Below, piece by piece: positions 5,371 to 21,910 of a DNA stretch of 21,910 bases; position 1 is the stretch's first letter, and the number at the start of each line of letters is the position of its first letter. The notes beneath the pieces were generated by a model. That model worked only from the letters and a program-made list of their open reading frames with translations, had not been told where the DNA came from and did not search any database. The position numbers and the translations under genes were made by a program. The DNA comes from a virus. The stretch is from the IMG/VR virus record IMGVR_UViG_3300007734_000471, positions 1 through 21,910 of that record; one strand, written 5' to 3'.

Positions 5371-5648
5371 GCGAGGAATTTCATCGTTTTCACGGTTGAT
5401 TCGACTCCTGCCAGATCCCGAACGATTGCGCGACAGCCTTTCCAAGTAGCGGCGAATTCGACCTGGTCTTGGGTTTCCTTGCCTTTTGGCATTTTGACTT
5501 CGACCAGCCATGTGATACCGTCTGTTGCCACCAAGAGGTCAGGCACTCCTTTGCCCAAAGGGGCCAGCGATAACACGCTGCAACCCAATTTCTTAAAGAA
5601 ATCAACGATTTCTCCGTGATTCCCGTCTACTCTAGCAGCCCACCGCAT
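5367..5648 (-). CDS. VRR-NUC-like nuclease
   Basis: A 93-residue protein with the core of a small VRR-NUC/restriction-like nuclease: an early E13 (HGEIVDFFKKLG), GVPDLLVA near 34-41 (the catalytic Asp region), and VEVKMPKGKETQDQVEF (the ExK pair followed by a Gln). Stand-alone VRR-NUC proteins of phages cut branched DNA such as Holliday junctions or flaps, which suits a recombination/packaging boundary. The fold and PD-(D/E)xK residues are all present and the length is usual for the stand-alone type. It starts at ATG 5646-5648 with GAGGGA upstream and overlaps the preceding Ref-like gene by 22 bases. Confidence 0.86.
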   Translation of the reverse strand: MRWAARVDGNHGEIVDFFKKLGCSVLSLAPLGKGVPDLLVATDGITWLVEVKMPKGKETQDQVEFAATWKGCRAIVRDLAGVESTVKTMKFLA

Positions 5649-5917
5649 AATTCCCTCGTCTTTTCCAGTAATTCCATTTCCGTCCCGTACCGGGCCTCGA
5701 ATTCCCGCCGCCAGGGATGCCGACTAACCGCTTCAGCCGTGTTTATCAGTCCCCTGTGATGGATCTGGCACAGTCCCAGCACAAAATCCTCGCCAATGCG
5801 CCTACCGCCGCGCAGGAGATGATGGATCTCGCAGGGGCTATCTACCCCTTCACCGTGACACACAATGCAGCCAGCCGCTCTTACAGCGTTCTGGAAGCGT
5901 TTCTGCTTGTTGGTCAC
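5627..5917 (-). CDS. Ref-like HNH nuclease
   Basis: A 96-residue protein resembling the nuclease domain of phage P1 Ref, a RecA-dependent HNH endonuclease. Seen here: CIVC at 17-20, CEIHHLLRGGRR at 29-40, LCQIHHRG at 49-56 and HPWRREFEARYG at 67-78, the usual Ref spacing of metal-binding Cys/His and catalytic His. P1 Ref has an extra basic N-terminal region that is absent here, so RecA dependence cannot be assumed. I chose the GTG start at 5917, because GTGA overlaps the upstream stop, like other joints of this block. A longer in-frame ATG at 5989 would overlap NinB by 76 bases. It sits between NinB and VRR-NUC, in a recombination set. Confidence 0.85.
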   Translation of the reverse strand: MTNKQKRFQNAVRAAGCIVCHGEGVDSPCEIHHLLRGGRRIGEDFVLGLCQIHHRGLINTAEAVSRHPWRREFEARYGTEMELLEKTRELCGGLLE

Positions 5918-6246
5918 GGAATCATGCTTTCTGGCGCTGGAATCTTGATGCCGGCATGATGCGATGCAGCATTGAGCCAGTCGAGCCATTCGCTAAAGCG
6001 GCGCTTTCCGTAGCGCGAAGTCCTGCGGCCTAGCATCACCATCCCGCCCTCGAGCCCTGGCGAGATCCGAGGCGAGGTTTCGCCCTCAAAAGCCGCCGTT
6101 AAAATGTCCTTCCATTCCTCGTCGGTTAGCGTGGTCATGGACCCGTTTATAGGCCATTGCTTCTGCGCGGCCCACGCTTGAAGGATGGGCCATTGCGCGG
6201 CGTTCTGTCCCGCGTTGCGTCTTTCCTCACAGACAAGGCAAATCAT
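5914..6246 (-). CDS. ninB: NinB (lambda Orf-like) recombination mediator, short N-terminus
   Basis: A 110-residue NinB-family protein. Lambda NinB/Orf is a recombination mediator that binds ssDNA and SSB and can help load recombinases. The family pattern is visible: QNAAQWPILQAWAAQKQW, then EEWKDILTAAFEG, PGLEGGMVMLGRRTSRYGKR and FSEWLDWLNA. Phage NinB proteins are usually about 140 residues. Here the ATG at 6244-6246 (ATGA overlap with the preceding stop) leaves about 30 N-terminal residues missing. A longer ATG start at 6351 would overlap the upstream gene by more than 100 bases, and that extra peptide does not look like a NinB N-terminus. The protein may be N-truncated yet still folded. 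Confidence 0.82.
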   Translation of the reverse strand: MICLVCEERRNAGQNAAQWPILQAWAAQKQWPINGSMTTLTDEEWKDILTAAFEGETSPRISPGLEGGMVMLGRRTSRYGKRRFSEWLDWLNAASHHAGIKIPAPESMIP

Positions 6247-9439: not shown

Positions 9440-10042
9440 ATGAACAAATCAGAATCAATCGCAGGACTGGCGGCAGCACTTGCAAAAGCGCAAGGAGCCA
9501 TGAAGGGGGCAATCAAGGACTCAGCGAACCCGTTCTTCAAATCGAAATACGCTGACTTGTCGAGCGTGGTCGAAGCGATCCGCAGCGCGTTTTCTGCGAA
9601 TGGCTTGAGCTACATCCAGACAGTCCAATCGTCCGATCTTGACGAAGTGCGAGTCGAGACAATGATCCTGCACTCGTCGGGCGAGTGGATCTCCTGCGGG
9701 GTCCTGGCCCTGCCGGTAAGCAAAAATGACGCGCAGGGCTATGGGTCTGCGTTGACGTATGCCCGCAGGTATAGCCTATCGGCTGCGGTAGGGGTCGCAC
9801 CCGAGGATGATGACGGCAATGCCGCGGTCGTAGCCAAGCCAAACGCCAAGGATTGGAGCAAGCATTCTGAAGCCCTAAGCGCAGCCGCCACGCTCGATGC
9901 TCTGCAAAAGTTATTCACCCTCGCTTACAAGGAGGCGCAGCGGGACAACGATACGATGGGCATGGCAACGCTCACCAACGCCAAGAACAAGCGCAAAGAA
10001 GTCCTCCAGCGCACCGAGGGTTTCCTCGAGGGTAGTCAATGA
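9440..10042 (+). CDS. erf: ERF family single-strand annealing protein
   Basis: A 200-residue ERF protein. ERF proteins of P22 and relatives anneal complementary single strands during recombination and circularisation of phage DNA. The family core is visible: MNKSESIAGLAAALAKAQG, then KDSANPFFKSKYADLSSVVE (about 28-46), FSANGLSYIQTV, LPVSKNDAQGYGSALTYARR (about 92-111) and YSLSAAVGVAPEDDDGNAA. The C-terminal third is helical and charged, as in relatives. GGGAG lies upstream of the ATG and the gene overlaps the exonuclease by four bases. ERF plus exonuclease makes a Red-like recombination pair. Confidence 0.95.
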   Translation: MNKSESIAGLAAALAKAQGAMKGAIKDSANPFFKSKYADLSSVVEAIRSAFSANGLSYIQTVQSSDLDEVRVETMILHSSGEWISCGVLALPVSKNDAQGYGSALTYARRYSLSAAVGVAPEDDDGNAAVVAKPNAKDWSKHSEALSAAATLDALQKLFTLAYKEAQRDNDTMGMATLTNAKNKRKEVLQRTEGFLEGSQ

Positions 10043-10644
10043 GCATCCAAGGCACACCGGAATGGCTTGCTGAACGTGCTGGCAAAGTGACCGCCAGCAT
10101 GGTTTCGGCGGTCCTAGCAAAACCGGAAACGGCAGGGTTTCGGGACTACCAAGCGCAGCTCGTCGCGGAGGTCCTGACAGGCAAGACGCAGGGGTCGGAC
10201 TACACCAACGCCGCCATGCAGTTCGGGACGGAAATGGAACCCCTTGCCAGAAGCGCGTATGAGGCCGAGACGGGGTTTTCGGTGGACGAGGTAGGGTTTT
10301 GCCAGCACCCGACTATCGAACGCGCTGGAGCCTCTCCAGACGGTCTGGTGGGCGATTCTGGGCTAGTCGAGATTAAATGCCCAAAGGTCGCCACCCATCT
10401 GGCGTATTTGATCGCCGGAGTTGTGCCGGTGGGGTACAAAAACCAGATGATGTGGCAGATGGCGTGTTCTGGAAGAGATTGGTGCGATTTTGCTAGTTTC
10501 AGGCCCGATTTGCCTGAGCACCTTCAGCTTTTCATTATTCGCTTCAAGCGCGATCCAGAGCGCATCAAGGAACTGGAAACCGCGGTGGTCGCCTTTTTGG
10601 ACTCTGTGGACAAAATGGTTAATCAACTCAAAAAGGTAGCTTAA
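10039..10644 (+). CDS. YqaJ-type (lambda-exo-like) exonuclease
   Basis: A 201-residue exonuclease of the YqaJ family, which resects double-strand ends so that an annealing protein can act. Catalytic PD-(D/E)xK core: GASPDGL with Asp101, then VEIKCPK with Glu111 and Lys113. Early residues GTPEWLAERAGKVTASM are the typical YqaJ start, with the Trp-Arg helix region. Length is normal. Start ATG overlaps ERF by four bases (ATGA), so they are probably made together. All key residues are intact. Confidence 0.94.
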   Translation: MSIQGTPEWLAERAGKVTASMVSAVLAKPETAGFRDYQAQLVAEVLTGKTQGSDYTNAAMQFGTEMEPLARSAYEAETGFSVDEVGFCQHPTIERAGASPDGLVGDSGLVEIKCPKVATHLAYLIAGVVPVGYKNQMMWQMACSGRDWCDFASFRPDLPEHLQLFIIRFKRDPERIKELETAVVAFLDSVDKMVNQLKKVA

Positions 10645-20411: not shown

Positions 20412-20774
20412 TCAATTCTCCTTACGCAACGTCTGCGCGATAGTGTTTACTTGTTGCGCGATAGCCGGAGCAATGAGCAGGCTATCGACCTCATTTTCGT
20501 CTACGCAATCTGTTGCGTGTATGCAGTACCAAATAACGTCCGTCAAGGATCTCACGCCGTGGTGCTGGTTGGCCTTGATCGTAATGCAAGCTGGAGCCGT
20601 AATGACCTGAGTACCCGCGTCCGTTATCAGTTCAACCGATCCCTGCGCCAGAATGGACAGGTGGTCAAAATGATGAACATGCTGCACCAACCAATTCCCG
20701 GCGGGAATAATGGTTTCCTTGGCGTACACACCGCCGCCAAAGTGATGCCGGATCTCAGGTTCTATAAAACTCAC
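20412..20774 (-). CDS. Cupin-fold protein in the virion module
   Basis: A 120-residue single-domain cupin. Metal-binding pattern: G26 then H32, H34 and H38 in QHVHHFDHLS, G45 in ILAQGSVEL, and H71/H72 near the second motif (NQHHGVRS). The length is right for a one-domain beta-barrel. Cupins of this type recur beside tail genes in podoviruses. Whether it acts as an enzyme, a sugar binder or a virion part is not known. GTG start (20774) overlaps the preceding stop as GTGA. The end merges with the ribosome site of the DNA transfer gene. Confidence 0.82.
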   Translation of the reverse strand: MSFIEPEIRHHFGGGVYAKETIIPAGNWLVQHVHHFDHLSILAQGSVELITDAGTQVITAPACITIKANQHHGVRSLTDVIWYCIHATDCVDENEVDSLLIAPAIAQQVNTIAQTLRKEN

Positions 20775-21106
20775 GACACCTCCCGCCCACTTGCCCGAAT
20801 GTTGATGGCCGTGGCCGTTCCAGCGATGGTGGAGATAAACCCGCTTGCCATCAGCACCTGGCCGACAATCTCGGGGAAAGTGTACACCTCAGACGCGGCC
20901 AAAGTCTTGGTCTTGGTAATCAAGTTCTGGTTGCCCGCCGTGTCCGCCGCCGTGACCAAGTTAACGCTCAGGGTCGCAGCCGTGGCGCTGTAGTTGGTCG
21001 CCGTAAACTTGTCGATGATCGTGGTGACGTTGGTCGCGGTGTATTGGGTGGTCTGGGCATTCTCGGCGGTCTTAGCCGGAATTAAAACCTTAACTGTAAC
21101 TGTCAA
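20771..21106 (-). CDS. Beta-rich virion protein, 111 residues, TTG start
   Basis: Starts MTVTVKVLIPAKTAENAQTT, followed by Thr/Ala/Val-rich alternating segments (YTATNVTTIIDKFTATNYSA). The whole protein looks beta-stranded, with no Cys. This resembles small head-decoration, neck or tail proteins of podoviruses. No ATG or GTG exists near the start. TTG at 21106 is chosen because AAGGAG lies seven bases upstream. The ribosome site overlaps the TAA that ends the remnant frame described at 21118-21201. Confidence 0.76.
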   Translation of the reverse strand: MTVTVKVLIPAKTAENAQTTQYTATNVTTIIDKFTATNYSATAATLSVNLVTAADTAGNQNLITKTKTLAASEVYTFPEIVGQVLMASGFISTIAGTATAINIRASGREVS

Positions 21107-21117
21107 TTTAATTCTCC

Positions 21118-21201
21118 TTAGCTAACTGGTACAATTATCTTGCGGCTAACCCGACGGGGGACATACGACTCATCATCGTATGCCGCGCTTTTCGATGACT
21201 T
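21118..21201 (-). pseudogene. Likely 3' part of a small gene split by the homing endonuclease
   Basis: A 27-codon open frame reading KSSKSAAYDDESYVPRRVSR then KIIVPVS and TAA (21118-21120). It has no ATG, GTG or TTG, and an in-frame TGA at 21202-21204 blocks extension. Its TAA runs into the AAGGAG of the next gene, as usual in this operon, and composition is GC-rich like the phage. Two other frames are open here for short stretches, including MSRMSPVGLAAR. It is read here as the tail of an interrupted gene whose start is at 21711; this remains inference. Confidence 0.4.
21162..21182. repeat. Seven-base perfect inverted repeat
   Basis: CATACGA (21162-21168) and TCGTATG (21176-21182) are separated by seven bases. 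It lies between the endonuclease gene start and the next leftward gene. It could be a recognition site for the endonuclease, an operator or a chance stem. No T tract follows on either strand, so a terminator is unlikely. Confidence 0.6.
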
Positions 21202-21221
21202 TCACTTTGATGAGGTGTTGT

Positions 21222-21704
21222 ATGCTTACCCAAACAAGGCTTAAAGCGGTATTTTTCTACGACCCGGTTGTCGGCGTATTTATCCGCAGGCTTAAACAAC
21301 CTGGAGCTAAAGTCGGCAAAATTTCTGGTTGCCTCCGCTCCGACGGATATTTGACCACTTCGATTGACGGAAAACCCCATAAATGCCATCGATTGGCATG
21401 GTTGTATATCACGGGTAATTGGCCCTGTTACGAAATAGATCATATTGATGGTAATCGCGCTAACAATAAATTTGCAAATTTAAGAGATATACCCAAATGG
21501 GCTAATGTCCAAAACCAACGCAAGGCGCAAAAAAGTAACCGTAGCACTGGCGTTTTAGGAATTTTTCCGAACGGTAACCGGTTTTCCGCAAGGCTTTCGG
21601 TAAATAACAAAAAAGTTTACTTAGGCATTTTTTCAACCAAAGAGGAAGCGCATCAAGCGTATTTAACCGCAAAACGGGCGTTACACGTTGGCTGTACGAT
21701 TTGA
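21222..21704 (+). CDS. HNH homing endonuclease with AP2 DNA-binding domain
   Basis: A 160-residue free-standing endonuclease in the opposite direction to the virion genes. The HNH core is around 55-92: SIDGKPHKCHRLAW, then EIDHIDGNRANNKFANLRD with the His-Asn-Asn set. An AP2-type domain follows at about 107-157: GVLGIFPNGNRFSARLSVNN, YLGIFSTKEEAHQAYLTAKR. Such enzymes cut phage DNA lacking the element and spread by repair. The ATG at 21222 has GAGGTG upstream; a longer TTG start at 21180 is less likely. The gene is more AT-rich than its surroundings, a sign of insertion. Confidence 0.93.
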   Translation: MLTQTRLKAVFFYDPVVGVFIRRLKQPGAKVGKISGCLRSDGYLTTSIDGKPHKCHRLAWLYITGNWPCYEIDHIDGNRANNKFANLRDIPKWANVQNQRKAQKSNRSTGVLGIFPNGNRFSARLSVNNKKVYLGIFSTKEEAHQAYLTAKRALHVGCTI

Positions 21705-21712
21705 CGGTCATG

Positions 21713-21910
21713 TTATGCGCTCCTTACGGTTACTCGGTCGCCAGCGGAAAGGCCAGGTGACACAAAGGTGATCGTGGTGCTGTTGGTTTCTGTGTACGCC
21801 ACGTTGTACTCCTCAGTCAACCCGTTGACCGCCACAATCGTGCTGCCGCCCATCAAATACGGCAAAACAGTAACCACCGTCTGCCCTGCGGTCGCCACAA
21901 CGGCGGGCTG
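21713..21910 (-). CDS. C-terminal part of a tail or virion protein (5' end outside)
   Basis: The frame is open to the window edge and shows 65 residues: QPAVVATAGQTVVTVLPYLM, GGSTIVAVNGLTEEYNVAYT, ETNSTTITFVSPGLSAGDRV and TVRSA. The pattern VNGL...YTET.STTITF...GD.V is typical of beta-structured modules in phage tail fibres and similar virion proteins. The visible part may be nearly the whole gene, because the same module also occurs at protein starts. Downstream is an AAGGAG ribosome site overlapping its last codons, which serves the small gene start at 21711. Confidence 0.75.
   Translation of the reverse strand, partial: QPAVVATAGQTVVTVLPYLMGGSTIVAVNGLTEEYNVAYTETNSTTITFVSPGLSAGDRVTVRSA

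Follow-up and report, generated by a model that had tools for sequence, protein, structure and literature searches.

The 21,910-nt viral sequence analysed here (the window, meaning the whole stretch) carries an HNH homing element that has probably invaded a conserved gene of 111 amino acids just past its third codon, on the opposite strand, and remade the start of that gene. We put the probability of this reading, in which homing itself is what we infer, at roughly 0.8. At the level of sequence, comparisons with related loci show where the element was inserted, which start was displaced and which one replaced it, that such insertions recur at this gene and that other genes display the same arrangement. 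At its right edge, the element brings a new ribosome site together with codons 1-3 (TTGACAGTT), and the full-length gene is thus remade, while the old ribosome site with its codons 1-3 (ATGACCGTC) is, judged by alignment, a dead remnant start. The features are listed in Table 1.

Table 1 Features of the invaded gene start and of the inserted element (window coordinates)
Feature	Coordinates	Strand	Evidence
Intact conserved 111-aa gene (target)	20771..21106	-	Intact relatives 96-100% identical
Replacement ribosome site AAGGAG (21119-21114) and codons 1-3 TTG ACA GTT	21098..21120	-	Found in L024 and L102-L104
Inserted element of ~605 bp (HNH gene, leader and replacement 5' end)	21098..21702		Absent from L002, L003, L006, L007 and L008, present in L024
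Structured HNH leader RNA	21141..21221	+	Pattern hits, pair counts, permutation test
Leader stem and leader hairpin	21142-21145 with 21183-21186; 21162-21168/21176-21182	+	
Leader loop CTCATCA and complementary TGATGAG at the HNH ribosome site	21169-21175; 21208-21214	+	
HNH_3/AP2 endonuclease gene, 160 aa	21222..21704	+	Pfam HNH_3 4.6e-11; PHROG 99 3.3e-53
Displaced ribosome site AAGGAG (21725-21720) and codons 1-3 ATG ACC GTC (21711-21703)	21703..21725	-	Aligns to the intact empty-site start
3' end of the upstream gene (C-terminus of a tail/receptor-type protein, leaves the window)	21713..21910	-	Homologous C-terminus in relatives

The target gene and the HNH gene

The window belongs to a P22-like podovirus (P22 portal, E 3.4e-171). 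The 111-aa gene has at least 576 relatives in IMG/VR, and 80 loci were compared. It sits between a variable receptor gene and a short-tail-fibre-like cupin gene, and the same order is found in podophage DSL-LC05 (variable tail gene, 111-aa gene, tail fibre protein, DNA transfer protein). The C-terminus encoded upstream in the window has homologues in L002, L003, L006, L007, L008, L019 and L024. The gap before the 111-aa gene looks like a cargo hot spot: in L019 (5802-5990), L012 and L005 it is filled by a small membrane/holin-like gene (MIIQLLKSKTVWFAILIAVLSVVQGY...), which is shortened in L005. Elsewhere in the window, a Ref-like RecA-dependent nuclease is encoded at 5627-5989 on the minus strand (PF16786, E 1.7e-18).

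The plus-strand HNH/AP2 frame noticed in an earlier sequence-only reading of this DNA was borne out by Pfam, with an AP2 match (E 0.0018) under its curated cut-off in addition to HNH_3 (PF13392); the motif residues of the nuclease domain are intact, and D73 H74, N82, N86 and N95 are among the invariant columns. The protein groups with the HNH endonucleases of PHROG 99 and matches the HNH homing endonuclease 1u3e_M (E 4e-4). Identity to the window's HNH is 94% in L082 and 61% in L064. The differences from L064 (57, 35 and 93 at the three codon positions) are concentrated at third positions, which supports coding. The start of the gene is better placed at ATG 21222, preceded by the ribosome site GAGGTG (21212-21217), than at 21180. 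As for a group I intron or an intein, no Rfam match was found in 20900-21910 at E<=1, the HNH gene lies on the opposite strand, and the target gene is restarted rather than spliced.

Empty sites and the insertion point

In five relatives (L002, L003, L006, L007 and L008), no sequence separates the homologue of the upstream gene from the 111-aa gene. The empty site reads GTAAGGAGCATCTGAA ATG ACC GTC ACC GTA AAA, and the junction in L002 reads GGCGACCGCGTAACCGTAAGGAGCATCTGAA ATG ACC GTC ACC GTA AAA GTG. In blastn comparisons, the two edges of the insert align to a single ~25-bp segment of the empty site (21702 corresponds to position 5834 of L003 and 21120 to position 5810), so that the left-hand ATGACCGTC is identified as the start that the 111-aa gene originally had, now displaced. 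Together with the AAGGAG before it, this sequence is the conserved start of the gene in relatives and not a chance resemblance. At its far edge, the element reads TAAGGAG AATTAAA TTG ACA GTT and restores the 111-aa gene. L024 carries the same element, and there the common allele ACC GTA AAG resumes after TTGACAGTT; this places the right edge at codon 3 and gives the element its length of about 605 bp, with a one-base ambiguity at the left edge. The TGA stop codon of the HNH gene (21702-21704) straddles the left junction and takes two of its three bases from the displaced GTC codon. One and the same site exists in occupied copies (the window, L024, L064, L185, L186 and L188) and in empty ones (the five relatives above and L066), the sporadic presence that marks an HNH homing element.

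These alignments also bear on the proposal of the sequence-only reading, namely, that the HNH element had cut in two a further small gene (~30 codons) lying between the neighbours. The sequence features behind it are right, and direct reading confirmed them: AAGGAG at 21725-21720 on the minus strand is followed by ATG ACC GTC AAA from 21711, one base past the upstream stop TAA (21715-21713), and on the other side, the TAA of a start-less frame merges with the AAGGAG (21119-21114) that precedes TTG 21106. There are, then, a good ribosome site and start on one side and a start-less frame with a stop on the other, as a split gene would leave them. The interpretation is partly supported, since an opposite-strand HNH element does follow a genuine start; the separate gene itself is hardly credible. 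Alignment of the relatives lacking the endonuclease revealed no uninterrupted small gene, since in the five empty-site relatives the upstream gene directly abuts the 111-aa gene, to which the left-hand start belongs. The GC-rich frame of 27 codons, taken as the other fragment, spans the HNH leader RNA; it is shared solely with other HNH leaders, and the empty sites hold no match to it.

An intact conserved gene of 69 residues beginning at 21711, a possibility raised in the same reading, was likewise dropped. The antisense frame opened by the displaced start is 69 aa long in L024, where the DNA is 92% identical, and 29 aa long in L064; in L185, L186 and L188 it runs for about 160-180 codons through the HNH antisense in an unrelated frame (from 1608, 2480 and 1524, respectively, in the reverse complement of each locus). 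Length and frame are therefore unconserved, with 29 to ~180 open codons.

The origin of the replacement start deserves separate consideration. The right-hand sequence resembles ordinary alleles, e.g., those of L001 and L027, and alleles with the replacement start (CCAGTTAGCTAAGGAGAATTAAATTGACAGTT) occur without an HNH gene in L102 (the same contig as L027), L103 and L104, where the upstream gene differs. Either these alleles are remnants that have lost the HNH gene, or the right flank was derived from them. We also considered whether the replacement start had been recoded synonymously for protection, but dropped the idea, as L001 naturally has nearly the same codons.

The existence of such TTG-start alleles would also suit an intergenic HNH gene in a TTG-start donor, with ATGACCGTC present by chance, or a start that was first duplicated in tandem and then received the HNH gene between its two copies; the duplication at this site, just three codons long, points the same way. 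We nevertheless consider both variants very unlikely, because in several lineages the remnant follows the uninvaded sequence as far as one and the same codon and because HNHs of the same family interrupt duplications of 16-27 codons in other genes (see below). No tandem double start without an HNH gene was seen among the relatives. With three duplicated codons, a start carried by the element and one borrowed from a recombining allele are not fully separable.

Recurrence at the same gene start

Is the insertion a single event, or has the start of the 111-aa gene been hit repeatedly? Antisense HNHs 61-63% identical to that of the window were found at the same start in L064 (the same contig as L187), L185, L186 and L188; in all four of these, as in L024, the hit in the 111-aa gene lies at codon 3 or close to it. 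The window and L024, as occupied contigs of one element, may share a single event. To the left of the HNH gene, L064 reads GTGACGTT, where its uninvaded neighbour L066 reads GTGACCGTT; the corresponding sequences are ATGACTGTT in L185 and L186 and ATGACCTTC in L188. The right-hand side has a new ribosome site with a full start (GAAAGGTCATAACATGACAGTTACAG in L064 and GAAAGGTCATAAACATGGCTGTCACAG in L185). The occupied lineages differ in their upstream genes, and their target genes are 64-97% identical, the target protein of L185, L186 and L188 being 64-66% identical to that of the window. The upstream-gene ending of L185 and L186 is also present, with no insert, in the uninvaded L032-L034, L038 and L039. 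In L185, L186 and L188, the left remnant diverges after codon 3 by ~12 nt, which means that not all joins are alike.

This recurrence helps to weigh whether the site is simply a boundary of mosaic exchange, at which the HNH gene and the new start arrived passively with a swapped receptor cassette and without active homing. The gene upstream of the 111-aa gene varies widely among relatives, L019 and L012 hold a different small gene in the same gap, and nuclease genes are known at exchange boundaries (PMC10448857). However, insertion at or next to codon 3 recurs with HNHs just about 61-63% identical, and the window shares its upstream gene with the uninvaded L002 and L007, which makes a cassette swap unnecessary. 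We therefore regard passive arrival as unlikely and prefer invasion of the gene start by a homing element.

More distant HNHs (~45-50% identical to that of the window, with the same leader) were observed in L195-L202, L207 and L208, where they are convergent to a gene that lies two positions further downstream than the place of the 111-aa gene; the stop codons of the HNH gene and the convergent gene overlap in one TTAA in several of these loci, L195 among them.

The same arrangement in other genes

Screening of the HNH relatives for repeated flanks showed that HNHs of the same family are accompanied in other genes by duplicated 5' coding ends. In L084, the beginning of ssb (27 codons) continues in frame into the HNH gene, beyond which an entire ssb is present together with a ribosome site of its own. 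In L170, VGVIADWIDHELRNW is followed by the HNH gene and then by MTLIPDWIDAELRNW and the remainder of the gene, with 16 codons duplicated. In L228 and L230, MTTITLVKLPDGSLRGMSESD is fused to the HNH gene and MPEITLVKNNENKIVGLSPAD heads the intact gene (~22 codons duplicated). These four loci, representing three distinct cases, score at least 28, against 0.03 expected, the permuted-pair maximum being 30. Two further loci flagged by the DNA flank-repeat screen were set aside: the repeat in L152 is not at a gene start, and L122 was left out of the count on account of an ambiguous frame in the left copy.

Taken more broadly, there may be a recurrent class of phage HNHs that invades the first codons of conserved genes (the 111-aa virion-region gene, ssb and others) and brings a replacement ribosome site and N-terminal coding end, with translation of the enzyme gated in part of the class by a leader that resembles int-alpA RNA and pairs through its hairpin loop with the HNH ribosome site; we consider the chances for and against this generalization to be evenly balanced.

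Proposed mechanism and comparison with known systems

In the mechanism that we propose, the HNH enzyme would cut the start of an uninvaded 111-aa gene near codon 3. The broken right side would be repaired by homology across the conserved gene, from the copy of the invader; the phage encodes an ERF-family protein (9440-10042) and a YqaJ exonuclease (10039-10644), a pair suited to homology-driven repair. On the left, phages differ in their upstream genes, and the broken end would there be joined directly to the end of the HNH gene, which would place the junction inside the HNH stop codon. Altering and displacing the start would also abolish the target site.

The closest described parallel is provided by the mobile ORFs of fungal mitochondria, which replace the C-termini of genes (atp6 in Allomyces macrogynus; atp6, atp9, cox2 and nad3 in Glomus; PMC3630166), and the present element is an N-terminal phage counterpart. 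In both, an endonuclease ORF within a coding sequence supplies the replacement, and the native part is left as a displaced duplicate; here, ATGACCGTC is the displaced end and TTGACAGTT the supplied one, and long duplications of this kind are those of L084, L170 and L228. The fungal elements, however, replace the 3' end and encode LAGLIDADG or GIY-YIG enzymes, whereas the phage element replaces the 5' end, encodes an HNH_3/AP2 enzyme and, at the 111-aa site, lies on the opposite strand.

Like the mob genes of T4 and the HNHs of Skunavirus, in the parts of the sources covered here (PMC2988022, PMC12724721), the gene is a free-standing, intron-less HNH gene amid structural genes, and the same parts offer a precedent for antisense placement in T4 segD, a GIY-YIG enzyme. 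The T4 elements are described there as intergenic and as possibly displacing promoters, with no mention in those parts of replaced ribosome sites or N-terminal codons. Elements of the ShiLan type in phage methylase genes (PMC11855218) also consist of an HNH gene placed directly in coding sequence without an intron or intein, with its stop codon at the last bases of the insert; there, however, the host gene reads through in frame, whereas the 111-aa gene is restarted from a new start past the insert. No description of start replacement by phage HNHs was found in the literature searched, whose coverage mostly excluded subscription journals.

An intron-less homing element could thus enter a conserved coding sequence without killing the gene, through a new start instead of splicing. 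The predicted cut site, at codon 3-4 of the 111-aa gene, makes the choice of target directly testable. For annotation, a strong ribosome site and ATG facing an antisense HNH gene can be a dead start.

The HNH leader RNA

The 84-base stretch that finishes with the HNH start codon follows the pattern GC.GCTWACCYGACGGGGGACA-hairpin-GC.GC, then TGATGAGGTG. A pattern scan placed this motif 69-70 nt ahead of an HNH gene in 40 of 43 viral contigs and in none of the 16 bacterial-genome hits, which, with no HNH gene adjoining, were taken as chance matches. The proposed structure, including a pseudoknot between CTCATCA and TGATGAG, is 96.4% paired over 22 distinct leaders, clearly above slid controls; three pairs are changed on both sides among these leaders, the double changes coming solely from the branch of the window. 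Minimum-free-energy folding is unremarkable (z -1.7 to 0), and since this method does not model pseudoknots and the key pairing is one, pair counting and a permutation test were used.

The pairing between the loop and the ribosome site is kept with unrelated sequences, such as CCTTAAT/ATTAAGG in L155, CTTATTC/GAATAAG in L142 and TAAGCAA/TTGCTTA in L210. At least six complementary loop bases were counted in 19 of 127 dereplicated leaders, compared with 4.8 (maximum 11) when ribosome sites were swapped between loci, and at least seven in 9 of 127, compared with 1.1 (maximum 5). Such pairing suggests that the loop probably holds down HNH production; the element would then be quieted by its own leader, with the hairpin loop lying on the HNH ribosome site. 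In T4-like phages, hairpins that hide the ribosome sites of endonuclease genes are known, according to the part of the source covered here (PMC2988022).

A covariance model of the leader yielded weak further matches only, and four of the next five (L210, L106, L152 and L083, E 0.2-0.8) end at an HNH start. In Rfam, the leader of the window matched no relevant family and had no int-alpA match up to E 10. The leader of the HNH relative L106 (2406-2471, plus strand), immediately ahead of the HNH gene, passes the gathering cut-off for int-alpA RNA (RF02996) with 36.7 against 35.8 bits and shares the order of closing stem, small hairpin, hairpin and ribosome site. Rfam types int-alpA as an sRNA, whereas here it is an HNH leader whose loop is complementary to the ribosome site, which suggests that some members of this family are cis leaders. 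The leader RNA offers a concrete hypothesis for the silencing of such endonucleases and may give some of the int-alpA class a function. As a conserved structure of this HNH lineage, the window's leader was also observed before the HNHs of L195-L202, L207 and L208 and before most of those in L260-L301.
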